Shown one piece after another: positions 31,045 through 41,033 of a stretch of DNA of 64,000 nucleotides. This stretch comes from Gammaproteobacteria bacterium (GTDB taxonomy: Bacteria > Pseudomonadota > Gammaproteobacteria > JAABTG01), in NCBI GenBank assembly GCA_034522055.1, contig JAXHLS010000006.1:608116-672115 (forward strand), written 5' to 3'. The notes beneath the pieces were generated by a model. It ran no database searches, was not told where the DNA came from, and was given only the letters and a program-made list of their open reading frames with translations. Position numbers and translations under genes: made by a program. How positions within the stretch are numbered: position 1 is the stretch's first letter; every line of letters begins with the position of its first letter.

Positions 31045-31917
31045 ATGACCGACCGAGACCCCAAGGATCTACTCCGCGTCATGCTGGTGGACGACAAGAT
31101 CCACCGGCGTGAGATGCTCCATGTGGCCCTCGACGAGGTGGGATGTGTGCTGGTCAACTGCGTGGCGGGCGATGGCGATCTCCTGTCCGCCGTGGAGGCA
31201 TCCAATCCGGATGTCATCCTCATAGACATCGAGACCCCGGGTCGCGATACCCTGGAGAGCCTCCAGACCGTCACCGACAAAGTGCCGCGGCCCATGGTGA
31301 TGTTTTCCCAGGACGACGACAACCGCACCATAAGGCAGGCCACGGAGGTGGGGGTCAGTGCCTACGTGGTGGATGGCCTGAGGCTCGAGCGTATCCGGCC
31401 CATCATCGACGCCGCGGTGGCGCGTTTTCAGTACTTCCAGCGCCTCGAGTCGGAACTCCAGAAGGCCCGTCGCCAGTTGTCGGAACGCAAGACCGTGGAG
31501 AAGGCCAAGGGCATCGTCATGCGCGAGCGTGGCCTGTCCGAAGAGGAGGCCTATAAGGCCCTGCGTCGTTTGGCCATGGACACGAACCGCAAGTTGTCGG
31601 ACGTGGCCCAGAGCATCATCGAGGCCGCCAGCATACTGTCACGCCAGTCCTTCCCTGCCATCCCTTGCCGGTGCACGTGCCTTTGCCTCGAGCGCGCCCT
31701 GTCCCCGGCGGGTTACGGCATTCCAGCGCCGCGGTGGGGGAAGGAATGGGGCGCTGCCGGCCCCGGCTGTCGAGTCGCGGACGACCTCAGACGAGGGCGC
31801 TCGCGGTGCACCAATAAGGTACAAGGATCATCATCCCTGCCCCTGATCCGCCCCCTGACGGTGCGTCGGCGGGCCTCATGGCGAGGGGGCAAGGGGGATG
31901 CCGGCGCACGCGGGTAA
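31045..31917 (+). CDS. ANTAR-domain response regulator (NasT-like) with an extra C-terminal tail
   Basis: 290 aa. Receiver-like domain (LRVMLVDDKIHRREMLHVAL; phospho-Asp in PDVILIDIETPG) at 10-125, then the ANTAR RNA-binding helices at about 135-200 (RRQLSERKTVEKAKGIVMRE; SEEEAYKALRRLAMDTNRKL; SDVAQSIIEAASIL). NasT-like proteins end here. The remaining ~90 residues are Arg/Pro/Cys-rich without a pattern, consistent with loss of the native stop. It lies 130 bp before a leader with hexaloop hairpins, its expected target, so it should antiterminate the nitrate operon. Confidence 0.9.
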   Translation: MTDRDPKDLLRVMLVDDKIHRREMLHVALDEVGCVLVNCVAGDGDLLSAVEASNPDVILIDIETPGRDTLESLQTVTDKVPRPMVMFSQDDDNRTIRQATEVGVSAYVVDGLRLERIRPIIDAAVARFQYFQRLESELQKARRQLSERKTVEKAKGIVMRERGLSEEEAYKALRRLAMDTNRKLSDVAQSIIEAASILSRQSFPAIPCRCTCLCLERALSPAGYGIPAPRWGKEWGAAGPGCRVADDLRRGRSRCTNKVQGSSSLPLIRPLTVRRRASWRGGKGDAGARG

Positions 31918-31997: not shown

Positions 31998-32013
31998 TGG
32001 CGCGTGGCTTGCG
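31998..32013 (+). promoter_or_regulatory. sigma-54 promoter of the nitrate assimilation operon
   Basis: TGGCGCGTGGCTTGCG matches the -24/-12 consensus TGGCACGnnnnTTGCw at all but two positions, with exact GG-to-GC spacing. Predicted start near 32024, upstream of the hexaloop leader. Sigma-54/NtrC control is standard for nitrate assimilation genes. Confidence 0.7.
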
Positions 32014-32050
32014 TTCCTTGCGGGCATTGCAACCCATCCCCGAGGGGACA

Positions 32051-32066
32051 GGCCCAACGGCGGGCC
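32051..32066 (+). promoter_or_regulatory. ANTAR target hairpin 1 (hexaloop)
   Basis: GGCCC-AACGGC-GGGCC: 5-bp stem with a six-base loop having A at position 1 and G at position 4, the recognition rule for ANTAR proteins. Confidence 0.75.
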
Positions 32067-32086
32067 GAGGGTGACAGGATAGACGG

Positions 32087-32104
32087 GCGGCCATCGCGGG
32101 CCGC
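32087..32104 (+). promoter_or_regulatory. ANTAR target hairpin 2 (hexaloop)
   Basis: GCGGCC-ATCGCG-GGCCGC: 6-bp perfect stem, hexaloop with A1 and G4. Separated from hairpin 1 by 20 nt. Confidence 0.75.
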
Positions 32105-32125
32105 AATCGGACAACGGCGTCCATT
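32105..32125 (+). promoter_or_regulatory. ANTAR target hairpin 3 (hexaloop)
   Basis: AAT(C)GGAC-AACGGC-GTCCATT: 4-bp inner stem extended by 3 A/T pairs across a one-base bulge. Its hexaloop is identical to that of hairpin 1 (A1, G4). It abuts hairpin 2 directly. Confidence 0.6.
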
Positions 32126-32134
32126 CTCCAACGA

Positions 32135-32169
32135 GCCTCCAGGCTCCACGGAGGGTGGGCGTTTTTTTT
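32135..32169 (+). terminator. leader terminator of the nitrate operon
   Basis: An imperfect G+C-rich hairpin (GCC at 32135 with GGC at 32158; CCTCC with GGAGG inside) immediately followed by eight T residues. It precedes the first coding gene by about 50 bp, as in ANTAR-controlled attenuators. A separate 8-bp hairpin (32174-32194) follows. Confidence 0.65.
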
Positions 32170-32217: not shown

Positions 32218-32934
32218 ATGGCTGAGGAAATGAGTAGGGGACGAGGAGTGGGGCGTGGATATATCCGCCGCTGGGCGCATGTCGCCGTGTTGGGCATCAC
32301 CCTCGGCGCGGCGCCGGCGGGCGGGGCTGCCGGGCCGGGGTTCCCGGAAAAGGAGGACCTCAAGTTCGGTTTCATCAAATTGACGGACATGGCGCCGCTG
32401 GCCATCGCCTATGAGAAGGGCTATTTCGAGGACGAAGGCCTGTACGTCCAGCTCGAGGCCCAGGCCAACTGGAAGGTGCTGCTGGACGGGGTCATCAACG
32501 GCCAGTTGGACGGCGCCCACATGCTGGCGGGACAACCCCTGGCCGGCACCTTCGAGTACGAGAAGGGCGACCGCCGCGCGGTGCCGGACTTCAATGTCTT
32601 CTTTCGTCACCACGCCACCTATCCCTACTACTCCGATGCCATGTGGTACCTCACCCAGATGCGGCGCTGGGGTCAGATCGCCGATGCCAAGTCCGATGAC
32701 TGGTACCGGGACACGGCCCGCGAGGTCTACCGGCCGGACATCTACCGCCGGGCGGCCGAGGCCCTCATCGCCGATAGCCTTTTCACGGCGGACGAGTTTC
32801 CCGATTTCGATGCCGAGAGCGGTTATCGCCCGCCCCAGTCCGAGTTCATCGACGGCGTGACCTTCGATGGCCGGGCGCCCAACGCCTACCTCGAAGCCTT
32901 CGACTTCGGCCTCAAGGGCGACGACCGGTTATAG
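32218..32934 (+). pseudogene. nrtA: nitrate ABC transporter substrate-binding protein with a large internal deletion
   Basis: 238 aa; NrtA proteins are over 400 aa. The signal region and N-lobe are normal (DLKFGFIKLTDMAPLAIAYE; KGYFEDEGLYVQLEAQANWK; DGAHMLAGQPLAG), then the frame jumps straight to the C-terminal block (FNVFFRHHATYPYYSDAMWY; LTQMRRWGQIADAKSDDWYR). Aligned by eye with the homologous domain fused to nrtC, about 210 residues are missing at about 32541-32552, in frame. The ligand-binding hinge and second lobe are gone, so the protein is unlikely to bind nitrate. Confidence 0.8.
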
Positions 32935-32966: not shown

Positions 32967-33998
32967 ATGGAGGAATCGAGAATGACGAGTGGCCACTTGA
33001 GCGGTATCCGACGCACCGCGTCCCTGCAAAGCCTGGTGGCACTGCTGCCACCCATGGACCCCCGCTGGCTCGGCACCCGGGTGCTGGTGCCCCTGGCGGC
33101 CTTGCTGGTGTTCCTGCTGCTATGGAGTGCCGGGGCACGGAACGTGGAAACCTCCCTGGGGGTACTGCCGGGGCCGGCCCAGGTGTGGGAGCAGTCGGTG
33201 AGCCTGTATCAGGAGCACACCGCCGAACGCGTCCGGGCGGACGAGTTCGACCAGCGCATGGAGGAACGGGTCGTGCGCGCCGTCGCCGATGGCTGGCCCG
33301 AGGACCGCATCCAGCGTATACAGGAGCGCCGCTACAGCGGCCCGCCCACCTTCCTCGATCAGATCCTGACGAGCATCGTGACCGTGATGGCGGGCTTCAT
33401 GGTGGCGTCCCTCATCGCCATCCCCGTGGGGGTCGCGTGCGGCATGAGCCCCACCCTCTACAACGCGGTGAATCCGTTGATCCAGATCTTCAGGCCCGTG
33501 TCTCCCCTGGCCTGGCTGCCCCTGGTGACCATCGTGGTATCCGCCCTTTACGTCACCGATGATCCCGCCTTCTCGAAGTCCTTCCTCACCTCGGCCATCA
33601 CCGTCACCCTGTGCTGCCTGTGGCCCACCATCATCAATACCACGGTGGGCGTGGCGGCCGTGGACCAGGACCTCATCAACGTCAGCCGGGTGCTGCGCCT
33701 CAATGCCTTCACCAAGACCATGAAGGTCATCCTGCCCTCGGCGGTGCCCATGATCTTCACCGGCCTGCGCCTGTCCCTCGGCATCGGCTGGATGGTGCTC
33801 ATCGCGGCGGAGATGCTGGCCCAGAATCCGGGGCTGGGGAAGTTCGTGTGGGATGAATTCCAGAACGGCAGCTCCGACTCCCTGGCCCGCATCATGGTGG
33901 CGGTGCTGGTGATCGGCTTCATCGGTTTTCTTCTGGACCGCGCCATGCTGGTGTTGCAGCGCGCCTTCAGTTGGGACAAGGACGCGGTCCTGCGCTAG
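32967..33998 (+). CDS. nrtB: nitrate ABC transporter permease
   Basis: 343 aa. N-terminal helix (VLVPLAALLVFLLLWSAG), an ~80-residue charged insert, then a BPD_transp_1 domain: VMAGFMVASLIAIPVGVACG, RPVSPLAWLPLVTIVVSALY and the EAA-like loop NVSRVLRLNAFTKTMKVILP, then GLRLSLGIGWMVLIAAEML. Appears complete. A start at ATG 32982 is also possible. Confidence 0.92.
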   Translation: MEESRMTSGHLSGIRRTASLQSLVALLPPMDPRWLGTRVLVPLAALLVFLLLWSAGARNVETSLGVLPGPAQVWEQSVSLYQEHTAERVRADEFDQRMEERVVRAVADGWPEDRIQRIQERRYSGPPTFLDQILTSIVTVMAGFMVASLIAIPVGVACGMSPTLYNAVNPLIQIFRPVSPLAWLPLVTIVVSALYVTDDPAFSKSFLTSAITVTLCCLWPTIINTTVGVAAVDQDLINVSRVLRLNAFTKTMKVILPSAVPMIFTGLRLSLGIGWMVLIAAEMLAQNPGLGKFVWDEFQNGSSDSLARIMVAVLVIGFIGFLLDRAMLVLQRAFSWDKDAVLR

Positions 33999-34066
33999 GT
34001 CCGCCGGGGCGGGGCCATCGTCCACCAAGCACCGCTCCGGAGCACCGGGGCACACAGGGATTAAAT

Positions 34067-36256
34067 ATGAACAGTTATCTCGACATCGATCACATCGGCA
34101 TCACCTTCCCCTCGGACCAGGGACCCATCAGGGTGCTCGAAGACTTCGACCTGCGGGTGGCCGAGGGCGAGTTCGTCTCCCTCATCGGCCATTCGGGATG
34201 CGGCAAGTCCACCGTGCTCAATATCGTGGCAGGCCTGCTCAAGGCCACGGAGGGCGGGGTGTTGCTGCAGAACCGGGAGGTGGACGAGCCCGGCCCCGAC
34301 CGTGCCGTGGTGTTCCAGCACCATGCCCTGATGCCCTGGCTCACGGTTTACGGCAACGTGCGCCTCGCCGTGGACCGAGTGTTCAGGCGCACCAAGACCC
34401 GCGCGGAGCGCCATCTCTGGACCCTCCAGAACCTGGAGCTGGTACATATGGATCACGCCCTGGATCGCAAGCCGGGGGAGATCTCCGGGGGCATGAAGCA
34501 GCGCGTGGGGATCGCTCGCGCCCTGGCCATGGAGCCCAAGGTACTGCTGATGGACGAGCCCTTCGGGGCCCGGGATTCGTTGACCCGCAGCCACATGCAG
34601 GATTCCCTCATCGAGATCCAGGGTCGGCTGCAGAACACCATCATCATGATCACCCATGACGTGGACGAGGCGGTGTTGCTGTCCGATCGCATCGTCATGA
34701 TGACCAATGGCCCGGCGGCCACCATCGGCGAGATCCTCGAGGTGGACCTGCCGAAGCCCCGCAGCCGCCTGGCCCTGGCCGAGAATCCCGTCTACAACCA
34801 CTATCGCGCCGAGGTGGTGCGTTTTCTCCATCGCAACCATCAGGCCCCGGCGCGGTCCGGCGACGGTGCCAGCGTGGTGGACTTGTCGGCCTGGATCCGC
34901 TCCACCCAGGCGGCCGGTGTGCGGCGCCTGGAGCGGCCGGAGCTGCGGCTGGGTTTCGTTCCCCTGACGGACTGCGCGCCCCTGGTGGTGGCCAAGGAGA
35001 AGGGTTTCTTCCTGGAACAGGGCCTGAACGTGGAATTGTCCCGGGAGAACTCCTGGGCCAACATCCGGGACAAGGTCGCGGTGGGTCTGCTGGACGGTGC
35101 CCAGATGCTGGCGGCCATGCCGCTGGCCAGCAACCTGGGTCTGGCGGGCTCGACACCCACGGTGGCCGCCATGAGCCTCGATCTCAACGGCAACGGCATC
35201 ACCGTGTCCAGCTCGCTCTACAAGCGCATGGCGGCCACCGGGGAGCCGGCCCTGGATACGCCCCTCGGCAGCGGGCGCGCCCTCAGGCGAGTCATCGACG
35301 CGCGCCGCGAGGCGGGCGAGGGGCCTCTCACCTTCGCCATGGTGTTTCCCTATTCCTCCCACAATTACCTGCTGCGTTACTGGCTCGCCGCCGCCGGCAT
35401 CGATCCGGATCGTGATCTGGAAATCATCGTGGTGCCGCCACCCCAGATGGTGAGTCACCTGGAAGCGGGCCTGATCTCCGGTTTTTCCGTGGGAGAACCC
35501 TGGAACACCATGGCGGTGTGCAACGGCCTCGGCCGCATCCTCGCCACCAGCCATGACATCTGGAACAACCATCCGGAGAAGGTGTTCGGTGTCTCCAGCG
35601 CCTGGGCCGCCGCCAACCCCAACACCCTGCGGGCTGTGGTCACGGCGCTGGCGCGGGCCTGCGCGTGGATCGACGAGACGGAGAACCGCCCCGAGGTCTG
35701 CCAGCTCCTGGCCAAGGGGCGGTACGTCAATGCGCCCCGCGAGGTCCTCGAGAATTCGCTCCTCGGCACCTTCCGCTTCGCCCACGACGAGGCCCCCGTG
35801 GCCCGTCCGGACTTCAACGTCTTCAGCCGCCATGCCGCCACCTTTCCCTGGCGTTCCCACGCGGTGTGGTTTCTCACTCAGATGGTGCGCTGGGGCCAGG
35901 TGGATCGGCCCGTGGATCTTCACCGGGTGGCGGCCATGGCCTACCGCCCCGAGTTCTACCGCCTGGCGGCACAGGATGGAGATATGTTGGTGCCGGAGGC
36001 GGACGTCAAGGACGAGGGCGTCCATGACGGACCCTGGGCCATGGAGGTACCCGGCGGTGTCCTGGACATGGGCCCGGACCGGTTCTTCGACGGCATGAGC
36101 TTCCACCCGGGTGACCCCGTGGGTTATCTGGAGGCGATGCCGATCAGACATCTGGCCATGGGCATGGCGGAACTGGCGGCCCTCAACCCGCCGCGGGACT
36201 TCGCCGCCCGGGCCATGGAGGCGCAAACACGGGTCAAAGGGGGGGCAAGACAATGA
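34067..36256 (+). CDS. nrtC: nitrate transport ATP-binding protein fused to an NrtA-like binding domain
   Basis: 729 aa from ATG 34067. ATPase half (1-265): Walker A GHSGCGKST, Q-loop VFQHHALMPW, signature ISGGMKQRVGIARAL, Walker B VLLMDEPFGARDSLT and H-loop TMIT-like MITHDVDEAVLL. From about residue 300 there is a complete NrtA-type binding domain (LRLGFVPLTDCAPLVVAKEK to the FFDGMSFHPGDP end), typical of NrtC. The attached domain is intact, unlike stand-alone nrtA. The stop overlaps the nirB ATG (ATGA). Confidence 0.93.
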   Translation: MNSYLDIDHIGITFPSDQGPIRVLEDFDLRVAEGEFVSLIGHSGCGKSTVLNIVAGLLKATEGGVLLQNREVDEPGPDRAVVFQHHALMPWLTVYGNVRLAVDRVFRRTKTRAERHLWTLQNLELVHMDHALDRKPGEISGGMKQRVGIARALAMEPKVLLMDEPFGARDSLTRSHMQDSLIEIQGRLQNTIIMITHDVDEAVLLSDRIVMMTNGPAATIGEILEVDLPKPRSRLALAENPVYNHYRAEVVRFLHRNHQAPARSGDGASVVDLSAWIRSTQAAGVRRLERPELRLGFVPLTDCAPLVVAKEKGFFLEQGLNVELSRENSWANIRDKVAVGLLDGAQMLAAMPLASNLGLAGSTPTVAAMSLDLNGNGITVSSSLYKRMAATGEPALDTPLGSGRALRRVIDARREAGEGPLTFAMVFPYSSHNYLLRYWLAAAGIDPDRDLEIIVVPPPQMVSHLEAGLISGFSVGEPWNTMAVCNGLGRILATSHDIWNNHPEKVFGVSSAWAAANPNTLRAVVTALARACAWIDETENRPEVCQLLAKGRYVNAPREVLENSLLGTFRFAHDEAPVARPDFNVFSRHAATFPWRSHAVWFLTQMVRWGQVDRPVDLHRVAAMAYRPEFYRLAAQDGDMLVPEADVKDEGVHDGPWAMEVPGGVLDMGPDRFFDGMSFHPGDPVGYLEAMPIRHLAMGMAELAALNPPRDFAARAMEAQTRVKGGARQ

Positions 36257-38859
36257 CGAGGCAGAAGCTGGTGGTGGTGGGTAATGGCATGGCGGGGATC
36301 CGTACCCTGGAGGAGATGTTGAAGCTGGCCCCGGCGATGTATGACATCACCGTCATCGGTGCCGAGCCCCATCCCAACTACAATCGCATCCTGCTCTCGC
36401 CGGTGCTGTCGGGAGACAAAGGGCTGGAAGATATCGTCCTCAACGGCCGCGAGTGGTACGAGGACCATGGCATCCGGCTCCTGACCGGCGATCCCGTGGT
36501 GGCCATCGATCGGGGGTCGCGCTACGTCGTTACCGCATCGGGGCACCGGGAACCCTATGATCGACTGTTGCTGGCCACCGGCTCCAAACCCTTCATGGTG
36601 CCCGTGCCGGGGGTCGAGCTGCCCGGGGTCATGGGTTTTCGCGATATCGCGGACGTGGCGGCCATGCTGGCCGCCGCCCGCAGCGGCGGCCGCGCCGTCG
36701 TCATCGGCGGCGGCCTGCTTGGCCTGGAGGCGGAGGCCGACCTGGTGGTGATGGCGGTGGGGATCCGTCCCAGCATCGAACTCGCCCGGGAGGCGGGCCT
36801 GTACTGCGACCGGGGCATCGTGGTCCATGACACCCTGCAGACCTTCGATCCGCGCATCTATGCCGTCGGGGAGTGCGTCCAGCATCGCGGCACCTGTTAT
36901 GGCCTCGTGGCCCCCCTGTTCGAGCAGGCGCGGGTGTGCGCCAGTCACCTGGCCCGTCTCGGCCACCAGCGTTACGAGGGCTCCGTCACCTCCACCAAGC
37001 TCAAGGTGACGGGCATCGATCTGTTCTCCGCCGGTGAGTTCAACGAGGAGGAGGGAGACGAGACCCTGGTGCTCCAGGACCCGGCCCAGGGCGTTTACAA
37101 GAAGCTCGTGCTGCGGGACAACCAGGTCAAGGGCGCGGTGCTGTTCGGCGACACCCTGGACGGCAGCTGGTATTTCCAGTTACTGCGGGAGGGCACCGAT
37201 GTCTCCGGTTTCCGCGGCACCCTGCTGTTCGGCCGCCACGACCTCGGCGATGCGGGCCACGGCGACGAGACACGGGTGGCGGCGCTGCCGGATGACGCAG
37301 AGATATGCGGCTGCAACGGCGTATGCAAGGGGGCGATCACCACCGCCATCGCCGCCAAGGGCCTGTTCACCGTGGACGACGTGCGCGCCCATACCAAGGC
37401 CTCCAGCTCCTGTGGCTCTTGCACCGGCCTGGTGGAGGCCCTGCTGGCCGCCACCGTGGGCCAGGGCTACGATCCGGCCCCCAGCCGCAAGCCCCTGTGC
37501 AAGTGCACCGAGCACAGCCACGACGACGTGATCCGTACCATCCGCGAGCACGGGCTGAAGACCATGCCGGCGGTGTTTGACTTCATGGAGTGGCAGACCC
37601 CCGACGGCTGCCACGTGTGCCGGCCGGCCCTCAACTACTATCTGCTGGCCGCCTGGCCGGGCGAGTACGTGGACGACGCCCAGTCGCGCTTCATCAACGA
37701 GCGGGCCCACGGCAACATCCAGAAGGACGGCAGCTATTCCGTGGTGCCCCGCTTCTTCGGCGGCCTCGTCAGGCCCGACGAGCTGCGGGCCATCGCCGAT
37801 GTGGCGGAGAAGTTCAAGGCCCGGGAGGTGAAGGTCACGGGCGGCCAGCGCATCGACCTCTTCGGCATCGCCAAGGAGGACCTGCCCGCGGTATGGGCGG
37901 ACCTGGGCCAGGCGGGCCTGGTCTCCGGCCATGCCTATGGCAAGGCCCTGCGCACCTGCAAGACCTGCGTCGGTTCCGAGTGGTGCCGCTTCGGCACCCA
38001 GGACTCCACTGCCCTGGGGGTGAGGCTGGAGGAGATGACGTGGGGTTCGTGGATGCCCCACAAGTTCAAGATGGCCGTCTCCGGCTGTCCGCGCAACTGC
38101 GCCGAGGCCACCATCAAGGACTTCGCCGTGGTGTGCGTGGAGTCGGGTTACGAGCTACACATCGGTGGCAACGGCGGCATCAAGGTGCGCACCACGGACA
38201 TCCTGTGCAAGGTGGACAGCGAGGAAAAGGTGCTGGAGTACTGTGCCGCCTTCATCCAGCTCTACCGCGAGGAGGCCCATTATCTGGAGCGCACGGCGCC
38301 GTGGGTGGAGCGGGTGGGGCTCGCCTATGTGAAGCAGCGGGTCCTGGAGGACACGGCGGGACGCTCGGCCCTGGTGGAGCGTTTCACCCTCAGCCAGCGC
38401 CATGCCCAGGTGGACCCCTGGGCGGAGCGGGTCCGCGGCGCCGCGGCCGGCGAGTTCACCCCCTGCGCATCGCCAACTGATGGCCGTAGCGCCATGGGCC
38501 GCGCGGCCATCAACCCGGAGTTTAAAACCATGAACGACTGGATCGTCATCGCCCGGCTGGAGGATATCCCACGCCTGGGGTCCCGCACCGTGGTCACCGA
38601 CACCCTGGCCATCGCCCTGTTCCGCACCCGCGACGACCGGGTCTTCGCCCTGCGGGACAGCTGTCCCCATCGCGGCGGCCCCCTGTCCCAGGGCATCGTC
38701 CACGGCACCACCGTCACCTGTCCGCTGCACAACTGGCAGATCGACCTCGCCAGCGGCCAGGTGCTGGGGCCGGACGAGGGCTGCGTCCACGCCTACGGAG
38801 TGAAGGTGGAAGAGGGGCTGGTGCACCTCAGCCTGACGGCCGGCCGGACGGCCGCCTGA
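36253..38859 (+). pseudogene. nirB: assimilatory nitrite reductase: NirB with deleted NADH-domain segment, fused to NirD
   Basis: 868 aa. FAD start KLVVVGNGMAGIRTLEEMLK is present. After AVVIGGGLLGLEAEA the frame goes straight to ADLVVMAVGIRP, so about 60-65 residues of the NAD-binding fold are missing, in frame (about 36724-36735). The BFD-like 2Fe-2S cysteines (CGCNGVCKGAI; SSCGSC), the siroheme-4Fe4S motif (CKTCVGSEWCRFG; SGCPRNC) and the rest are intact. From residue ~760 a Rieske NirD follows (CPHRGGPLSQ; CPLHNWQID) after a linker, with an internal ATG at 38530, so the nirB stop seems lost. NADH use is probably impaired. Confidence 0.8.
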
Positions 38860-38872
38860 CGGCCCACGGCCC

Positions 38873-41033
38873 ATGGCCAACGTACGCACCACCTGCCCGT
38901 ACTGCGGCGTCGGCTGTGGCCTGCTGGTGTCCCGCGATGGCACGGCGGGCTGGCAGGTCAGGGGCGACCCGGACCATCCCTCCAATCGCGGCCGGCTGTG
39001 CTCCAAAGGAGCGGCCCTCGCCCAGACCGTGGGGGACGACGGGCGCCTGAATACGCCGCAGGTGGCGGGCGTCCCGGTGTCCTGGGAACGCGCCCTCGAT
39101 ACCGTGGCGGATGGTTTCCGGCGCGTCATTGATACCCATGGCCCCGATGCCGTGGCCTTCTACGTCTCGGGGCAGTTGCTCACCGAGGACTACTACGTCG
39201 CCAACAAGCTCATGAAGGGCTTCATGGGCTCCGCCAACATCGACACCAACTCGCGGCTGTGCATGGCCTCCTCGGTGGCCGGCCACCGCCGGGCCTTCGG
39301 CAGCGACACCGTGCCCGGCTGTTACGAGGACTTCGAGCAGGCGGAACTCATCGTGCTGGTGGGCTCCAACACCGCGTGGTGCCATCCGGTGCTCTACCGG
39401 CGCATCGTGGCCGCGAAGCAGGACAATCCCGACCTGCGGGTGGTGGTGGTGGACCCCCGGACCACCGCCACCTGCGAGGCCGCCGATCTGCACCTGGCCC
39501 TGCGGTCCGGTACGGACGGCATCCTGTTCAGTGGCCTCCTTGCCTGGCTGCATGGCGCAGGGTGCATGGACGGTGCCTTCGTGGAGAACCATACTGAAGG
39601 GCTGGACCAGGCCCTGCAGCAGGCCCGCTGGTATGCCCCCTCCATCACCGCCGTGGCGACTCACTGCGGTCTCGACGAGGCCGATGTGGAGCGCCTCACG
39701 CACCATTTCCCGCCAGCGCCCCTTCCTGGAACACAAGGGTGCCGGCCGGCCCGATTGGTGGATCCTGTGCCAGGTGGCCGGGCGGCTGGGTTACGAGGGC
39801 TTCGATTACGGCCATCCGCGGGAGATCTTCGCCGAGCACGCCCGCCTGTCGGGCCTCAACAACGAGGGTACCCGGGGCTTCGATATCTCCGGCCTGGCCG
39901 CCCTGGAAGAACACCAATACGACGGCCTCGAGCCCGTGCAATGGTCGGTGCCGGCGGGGCGTCGCGACGGCACCCGCCGCGTGTTCGGCGACGGCCGCTT
40001 TCATACTCCCAGCGGGCGTGCCTGCTTCGTCGCCGTGACGCCCCGCCCGCCGGGGCACGGGGTGAGCGCGGCCTATCCCCTGGTACTCAACACCGGGCGC
40101 CTGCGGGACCAATGGCACACCATGACCCGCACCGGCATGGCGCCCCGCCTGTGGGCTCACCACCCCGAACCCTTCCTCGCCATCCATCCCGACGATGCCG
40201 CGGCCCGGGGAGTGGAGGAGGGCGGCCTGGTGCGGGTGGCGAGCGCCTGGGGCGAGGCGGTGGTGCGCTGCCGCCCGACCCGGGAGCAGCGCCCAGGCGA
40301 GGTCTTCATGCCCATGCACTGGAACCGGCAGTTCGCCAGTGCCGCCGGCGCCGGGGCGCTGGTGAATCCGGTCACGGATCCCGTGTCGGGCCAGCCGGAG
40401 TTCAAGCATACGCCCGTCGCCGTGGCCCCCTACCGGCCGGCGTGGCATGGATTCCTCTTGACCCGGGAGGCCGTCGCGGCACCCGCGGGCGCCAGTTACT
40501 GGAGCCGGGCACGGCGGGAAGGTCTGTGGCATTACGAGCTGGCGGGGGATGACCATGGGGACGACTGGTCTGAGGTGGCACGCTGCCTGGACCGCGGCCG
40601 GGAGGGGCAGTGGGCGGAGCTGATGGACCGCGCGGGGGGCCACTACCGGGGAGTCAGCGTCGTCGCCGACCGCCTCCAGATGTGTCTCTTCATCGGCCCC
40701 GATCACCGCCTGCCGGCCCGCGACTGGCTGGTGGGCCTGTTCACCCGCGATACCCTCGGCGCCCGGGAGCGCATGGACCTGCTGGCCGGGGTGCCCCGCG
40801 ATGCCGCGGCCGATGCCGGCGCCGTCGTCTGCGCCTGTTTCGGAGTGGGCGCCCGCACCCTGGAGAAGGCCATCCGGCAAGACGGCATGACCACCCCCGA
40901 GGCCATCGGTCACGCCCTGGGTGCCGGCACCAACTGCGGTTCCTGCCTGGCGGAGATCGGCGCGCTAATCGCCCGCCACCACGGCCACGCCGGCGTGGGC
41001 GACCAGGCGCAGGTAGTCGATGAAATGATCTGA
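38873..41033 (+). pseudogene. nasA: assimilatory nitrate reductase NasA, internal deletion with frameshift
   Basis: The first frame (38873 to about 39709) encodes TCPYCGVGCGLLVS (4Fe-4S), the Mo-ligand region NSRLCMASSVAGHRRAFGSD and on to ERLTHHF. The second frame (from about 39705 to 41033) resumes at ISRQRPFLEHKG and includes WWILCQVAGRLGYEGFDYG, LNTGRLRDQWHTMTRTGMAP (MopB C-lobe) and a BFD-like 2Fe-2S end VVCACFGVG...NCGSCLAEIG. About 180 residues of the central Mo-cofactor domain are absent and the frames are offset by one, so the gene is broken. Confidence 0.85.

Follow-up and report, generated by a model that had tools for sequence, protein, structure and literature searches.

The 64-kb stretch of gammaproteobacterial DNA analyzed here (the window) carries a nitrate operon preceded by a regulatory gene and an RNA leader, with all the features described on the forward strand. 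The regulatory gene (31045–31917) encodes a response-regulator receiver (Pfam Response_reg, E = 1.2e-10) and an ANTAR domain (Pfam ANTAR, E = 4.5e-21), so the ANTAR protein that the initial annotation had placed just upstream of the leader is indeed there. The best PDB matches of its product are 1s8n, a putative antiterminator, and 6wsh/6ww6 (EutV). The protein is called NasT-like because it adjoins nitrate genes, and the REC-like and ANTAR domains in this upstream reading frame are those of NasT in the NasS-NasT system. Between the gene and the leader lies a sigma-54-type promoter element, TGGCGC-GTGGC-TTGC (31998–32012), found by matching the pattern TGGCGC-N5-TTGC, which occurs 4 times in the window with 0.86 matches expected. 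Such an element is also found 5' of the leaders of many relatives at a comparable distance, and transcription presumably starts near 32024.

Downstream of the leader, an nrtA-like gene of a nitrate ABC transporter (32218–32934) is recognized by its N-terminal part only (NMT1_2, E = 6.2e-23) and by BLASTP and BLASTN matches to the NrtA of L010; L numbers label the loci and leaders that were compared. It is followed by an nrtB-like permease gene (32967–33998; BPD_transp_1, with TIGR01183 below its cut-off) and an nrtC-like ATPase gene (33971–36256; TIGR01184 above its cut-off), whose product has a C-terminal NrtA/NasS-like binding domain (NMT1_2, 1.3e-86, residues 320–581). A nirB-nirD fusion and nasA-like genes lie further downstream. 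No stand-alone NasS was identified in the genome, and no nasS lies beside nasT. Four further PF13379 matches were found in the genome: two look exported, as judged by eye from twin-arginine-like motifs, a third is the NrtC fusion, and the fourth match is weak. As NrtC contains a full NrtA/NasS-like domain, it could be the nitrate sensor that holds NasT. The same genome encodes a second receiver-ANTAR protein beside a histidine kinase (L002, contig C2, 1450–2439, reverse strand).

The leader contains three consecutive hairpins with loops of six nucleotides, which are present base for base as the initial annotation had described them. They are hairpin A (HP1; GGCCC-AACGGC-GGGCC, 32051–32066), P1 (HP2, or B; GCGGCC-ATCGCG-GGCCGC, 32087–32104), and P2 (HP3; GGAC-AACGGC-GTCC, 32109–32122). 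The loops AACGGC, ATCGCG, and AACGGC all have A at the first position and G at the fourth (A1/G4), as claimed, and all three hairpins are closed by a C-G pair. An intrinsic terminator follows at 32117–32169. Folding gives it a 13-bp stem (32117–32129 paired with 32150–32162) and an inner hairpin; the expected eight T residues (32162–32169) lie behind its 3' arm, and the stem and T run were also listed by a terminator scan. The 5' arm of the terminator starts inside the P2 loop and takes up the 3' strand of P2, with 32117–32122 common to both structures. Since the 3' half of P2 sits in the terminator stem, P2 and the terminator are mutually exclusive, and it is by such exclusion that the dual-hexaloop model defines P2 (PMC3369931, PMC3369936). 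The third hairpin is therefore the canonical antiterminator hairpin, and the second, 4 nt upstream of it, is the canonical P1. As the second and third hairpins make up the known P1-P2 pair, the first is the surplus one.

The P1 and P2 loops are 20 nt apart in the window and mostly 20–25 nt apart in the leaders inspected. The linker of 4 nt (32105–32108) falls within the 2–25 nt of an actinobacterial ANTAR survey and just below the 5–12 nt of the Enterococcus faecalis eut leaders, in which cutting the linker to 3 nt impaired induction (PMC3369931). The A1/G4 loops, the C:G closure, and the P2/terminator exclusion of the leader are traits of dual-hexaloop ANTAR target RNAs. The proposal that it is an ANTAR-type attenuator is thus well supported by the upstream ANTAR regulator, the P2 overlapping the terminator, and the nitrate genes downstream.

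Folding calculations agree with such a switch. In a transcript ending at 32123, hairpin A, P1, and P2 all form; without protein, the terminator form is favored by 6.3 kcal/mol, and the probability of P2 is approximately zero once the terminator is complete. The folding energy of the pre-terminator stretch (32045–32135) is ordinary for its composition (z −0.5), and stretches that include P2 and the terminator exceed shuffles in stability (z −3.3 to −3.6). The initial annotation had suggested alternative pairings, an idea that the folding of the full leader does not support. Hairpin A has a pairing probability of 0.99 there, with the terminator present, and only the third hairpin competes. Hairpin A is therefore not an alternative-pairing partner, and its pairing with the terminator arm was rejected on the same grounds. 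In the minimum-energy fold it is part of a three-way-junction module (32032–32072). An enclosing helix of 4 bp (ACCC/GGGU, 32032–32035 with 32069–32072) surrounds hairpin A and a tetraloop hairpin (UCCC-CGAG-GGGA, 32037–32048). Equivalent enclosing helices of unrelated sequence, assessed by eye and folding alone, are found in L010, L013, L068, L076, and L018, while L019 favors another fold.

The cluster of hexaloops is not a product of chance. Hairpins with an A1/G4 hexaloop and at least four Watson–Crick pairs are common in the 64-kb window (30 on the forward and 19 on the reverse strand), and the leader is the sole spot at which three of them lie within 130 nt. Among 20,000 dinucleotide shuffles of the leader, none contained three hexaloops and 25 contained two. 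These shuffles, together with the recurrence of the cluster in relatives, rule out a chance origin. A scan of the window leader and of the loci of ten relatives with Rfam, which the initial annotation had proposed, gave no family at the gathering score, and there was no sign that Rfam has an ANTAR family. The sole sub-threshold match, to a SAH riboswitch, scored 16.3 bits where 37 are required and was dismissed as chance.

The genus, family, and order of the window organism together yielded only five genomes, and for this reason the class and the phylum were sampled. Leaders were sought with R1, a covariance model of P1, P2, and the terminator only, which is blind to the upstream part, although most of its training sequences carry hairpin A. 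R1 found 56 places in 47 of 369 gammaproteobacterial genomes; in the genome of the window, the leader described above was the single match. In total, 67 distinct leaders were inspected. About 24 of the 56 leaders from the class (roughly 40%, counted from tables), belonging to 17 families, have hairpin A, mostly 31–40 nt upstream of the P1 loop. Among leaders with a strict P1, the 60 nt before it contain an A1/G4 hexaloop hairpin in 23 of 41 cases, a count that is free of selection for pairing; in 500 shuffles, the count averaged 0.96 and never exceeded 4. When upstream hexaloop hairpins are sorted by loop positions 1 and 4, A/G occurs 26 times and every other letter pair at most 3 times, which is the background level. 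To the strict count can be added four Ca. Thiodiazotropha-type leaders whose P1 contains a G-U pair, and an independent phylum-wide sample yielded A, P1, and P2 in L123, L129, L130, and L131. The genes behind leaders with hairpin A mostly encode NMT1_2 nitrate-binding proteins, NirB-like reductases, and MFS (NarK-like) transporters. One three-hexaloop leader (L070, reverse complement, from position 1500) precedes a gene for a PilJ/HAMP methyl-accepting protein, and control of a receptor by NasT is possible there. Firmicutes ANTAR loci were also scanned for triple hexaloops; these loci contained hardly any dual leaders.

The stem of hairpin A is maintained by pairing in these relatives. A definition of A that uses nothing but the loop and its closing pair (CAANGGCG, with one mismatch allowed) gave 47 sites spread over 38 of 79 leaders. 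At 41 of the 47, the three stem positions that follow were paired, a count likewise independent of any choice for pairing. With shuffled stem partners, a mean of 12.3 and a maximum of 21 of the 47 sites were paired. In the alignment of A, the C-G closing pair is invariant and the other stem positions show between four and six types of pair, although these counts come from hairpins chosen partly for pairing and are biased towards structure. An example is L068/L020, the closest relative that shares the gene order of the window, where hairpin A reads GACTC-AACGGC-GAGTC as against GGCCC-AACGGC-GGGCC in the window. The covariation that the initial annotation had proposed to look for is thus present: compensatory stem changes are kept in homologues, and the extra hexaloop is conserved with them. 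The features that stay constant are also those recovered when NasR was used for in vitro selection from random RNA, namely C:G closure and A1/G4 (PMC7496416).

The number of hexaloops differs from leader to leader. The upstream hexaloop recurs in homologues; the number three itself is not fixed, since two, three, or four hexaloops occur among the relatives. Hairpin A is missing from more than half of the leaders sampled, and even within one genus it can be present (L089) or absent (L106), which means that the mechanism does not depend on it. About 16 nt upstream of hairpin A, the majority of the Ca. Thiodiazotropha-type leaders (L010, L011, and L013–L017), L019, and L076 have yet another A1/G4 hairpin, their fourth. 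In several of these leaders, the enclosing helix surrounds both upstream hexaloop hairpins and so creates a three-way junction; in the window and in L018, the fourth hairpin has a tetraloop instead. In nine leaders (L022, L068, L083, L093, L103, L112, L117, L120, and L121), hairpin A keeps A1/G4 while the middle hairpin fails as an A1/G4 hexaloop, and A is therefore not simply a decaying member of the series.

Comparison with known systems places the leader close to the dual-hexaloop RNAs of E. faecalis eutP, Klebsiella oxytoca nasF, and Pseudomonas aeruginosa amiE (Ramesh et al. 2012, PMC3369931). They share A1/G4 loops on C:G-closed stems, exclusion between P2 and the terminator, a nearby ANTAR gene, and downstream genes of nitrogen metabolism. 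The leader differs from them by its third hexaloop, which lies inside a three-way junction and, in the leaders that have it, mostly 31–40 nt upstream of the P1 loop; Ca. Thiodiazotropha and others add a fourth. The NasS-NasT systems of Paracoccus denitrificans and Bradyrhizobium (PMC3795266, PMC6759348) likewise have a REC-ANTAR NasT by nitrate assimilation genes with a leader RNA, and Paracoccus NasT binds its nasA leader (PMC3795266). In contrast, no separate nasS lies beside nasT here, and among candidate sensors the NrtA/NasS-like domain fused to NrtC is the nearest. For the leader of Paracoccus, hairpins are mentioned only as “data not shown”. The EutX/Rli55 small RNAs of E. faecalis and Listeria are similar in that one RNA combines a dual with a single hexaloop (EutX, PMC8934654), but they are regulatory RNAs that sequester EutV and not leaders with a hexaloop at a set distance upstream of P1. 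A literature search that covered Azotobacter, Pseudomonas, and Klebsiella leaders incompletely found no ANTAR leader with more than two hexaloops, and an earlier mention is possible.

The sequence is probably best read as a nitrate-responsive, NasT-type antitermination leader that has one further hexaloop for ANTAR binding. This reading builds on the anatomy of the leader, the exclusion between P2 and the terminator, and the recurrence and pairing of hairpin A in homologues. The identical loop and closing pair suggest that NasT also binds hairpin A, and such binding would raise the sensitivity or the efficiency of antitermination. An unlikely alternative is a plain two-hairpin attenuator, in which P1-P2 (32087–32122) alone are active and the first hairpin represents a neutral 5' structural element or a relic. 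P1-P2 alone fits the described motif, about half of the leaders have nothing more, and the full affinity of NasR is reached with two hairpins (PMC7496416). However, a structural element would need no A1/G4, yet the upstream loops show 26 A/G pairs and at most 3 of any other, and the nine leaders that keep A1/G4 upstream and not in the middle are the opposite of what a relic would produce.

The same nine leaders bring up another arrangement, in which A and P2 form the functional ANTAR pair, with the middle hairpin serving mainly as a folded spacer that is optionally also bound. In L068/L020 the loop of A is AACGGC while the middle loop is GATGCA (G1), and several leaders with an intact A have a tetraloop or another non-ANTAR loop in the middle. 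This arrangement is nevertheless improbable. The middle loop of the window is a proper A1/G4 hexaloop, leaders without A most commonly have P1 at 20–25 nt as the single upstream hairpin, and antitermination by EutV was abolished when the linker was extended by 20 nt (PMC8934654). The least credible alternative is that of tandem attenuators, with A as the P2 of a second, upstream terminator. The hexaloops do stand in tandem, and a T run separates A from P1 in L010 and L011, but a run of five T is absent from this interval in 34 of 36 leaders with A, including the window, which has no terminator-like site between A and P1. The additional ANTAR-binding hexaloop remains the preferred reading.

With hairpin A as a binding hexaloop, the switch could work as follows. 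The sigma-54 promoter would start transcription, and the nascent RNA would form a three-way junction that presents hexaloop A first, followed by P1 and then P2. Without active NasT, the terminator stem would take the 3' half of P2, and transcription would stop at the T run. The upstream hexaloops would capture active NasT, which would then be handed over to the emerging P2 or bind next to it; P2 would persist, and the terminator would be unable to form. Hairpin A would most likely serve as an earlier, additional recruitment site. It emerges about 35 nt before P1 and could give NasT more time or a higher local concentration. In the model suggested by the structure of EutV with RNA, a single ANTAR dimer binds a single hexaloop, with P1 recruiting and P2 antiterminating (PMC8934654), so a second recruitment hairpin would need no new chemistry. 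Cooperative binding, which the initial annotation had raised, or repeated recruitment of the ANTAR protein by the extra hexaloop is possible. A more tentative version is a multivalent platform, in which three or four hexaloops at set distances might load several NasT dimers, or one oligomer of about six units, in the order of transcription, and the number of upstream hexaloops might set the threshold or steepness of the nitrate response. Such a platform for several subunits is conceivable because NasT of Paracoccus, once released from NasS, assembles into an oligomer of about six (PMC3795266).

The operon in the window is itself damaged. Compared with the NrtA of L010, nrtA (32218–32934) has an in-frame internal deletion of about 225–230 codons, with approximately 10 bases of matching sequence at the junction. 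Within 36253–41033, about 67 residues are missing from nirB near residue 160, and nasA is divided between two frames and has a gap of roughly 190 residues; these defects reflect either decay of the nitrate operon or an assembly fault. The nasT gene lacks its usual stop, and its segment 31657–31917 runs about 85 codons beyond the C-terminus of relatives into the intergenic region (L010 NasT ends near residue 206). In view of the damage to nrtA, nirB, nasA, and nasT, the window copy of the leader and operon may be a relic or non-functional, or part of it may be mis-assembled. For this reason, the general claim on hairpin A rests on the relatives.

The best reading of the family is that a leader with one or two additional recruitment hairpins is a new variant of ANTAR target RNA. 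For the nitrate leaders of a large bacterial class, an ANTAR search based on two hairpins gives an incomplete description, and the core of P1, P2, and terminator with the upstream hexaloop provides a model for RNAs that Rfam does not match. The structure of EutV with RNA leaves open why two hexaloops are needed if one dimer binds one (PMC8934654). Here, the number of hexaloops (two, three, or four) and their spacing vary in the same type of operon across many families. Given this natural variation, the models of recruitment, of simultaneous dimers, and of an oligomer could be separated with single-loop mutants of one leader. The findings suggest more than two recruitment sites for the activator in many nitrate switches.
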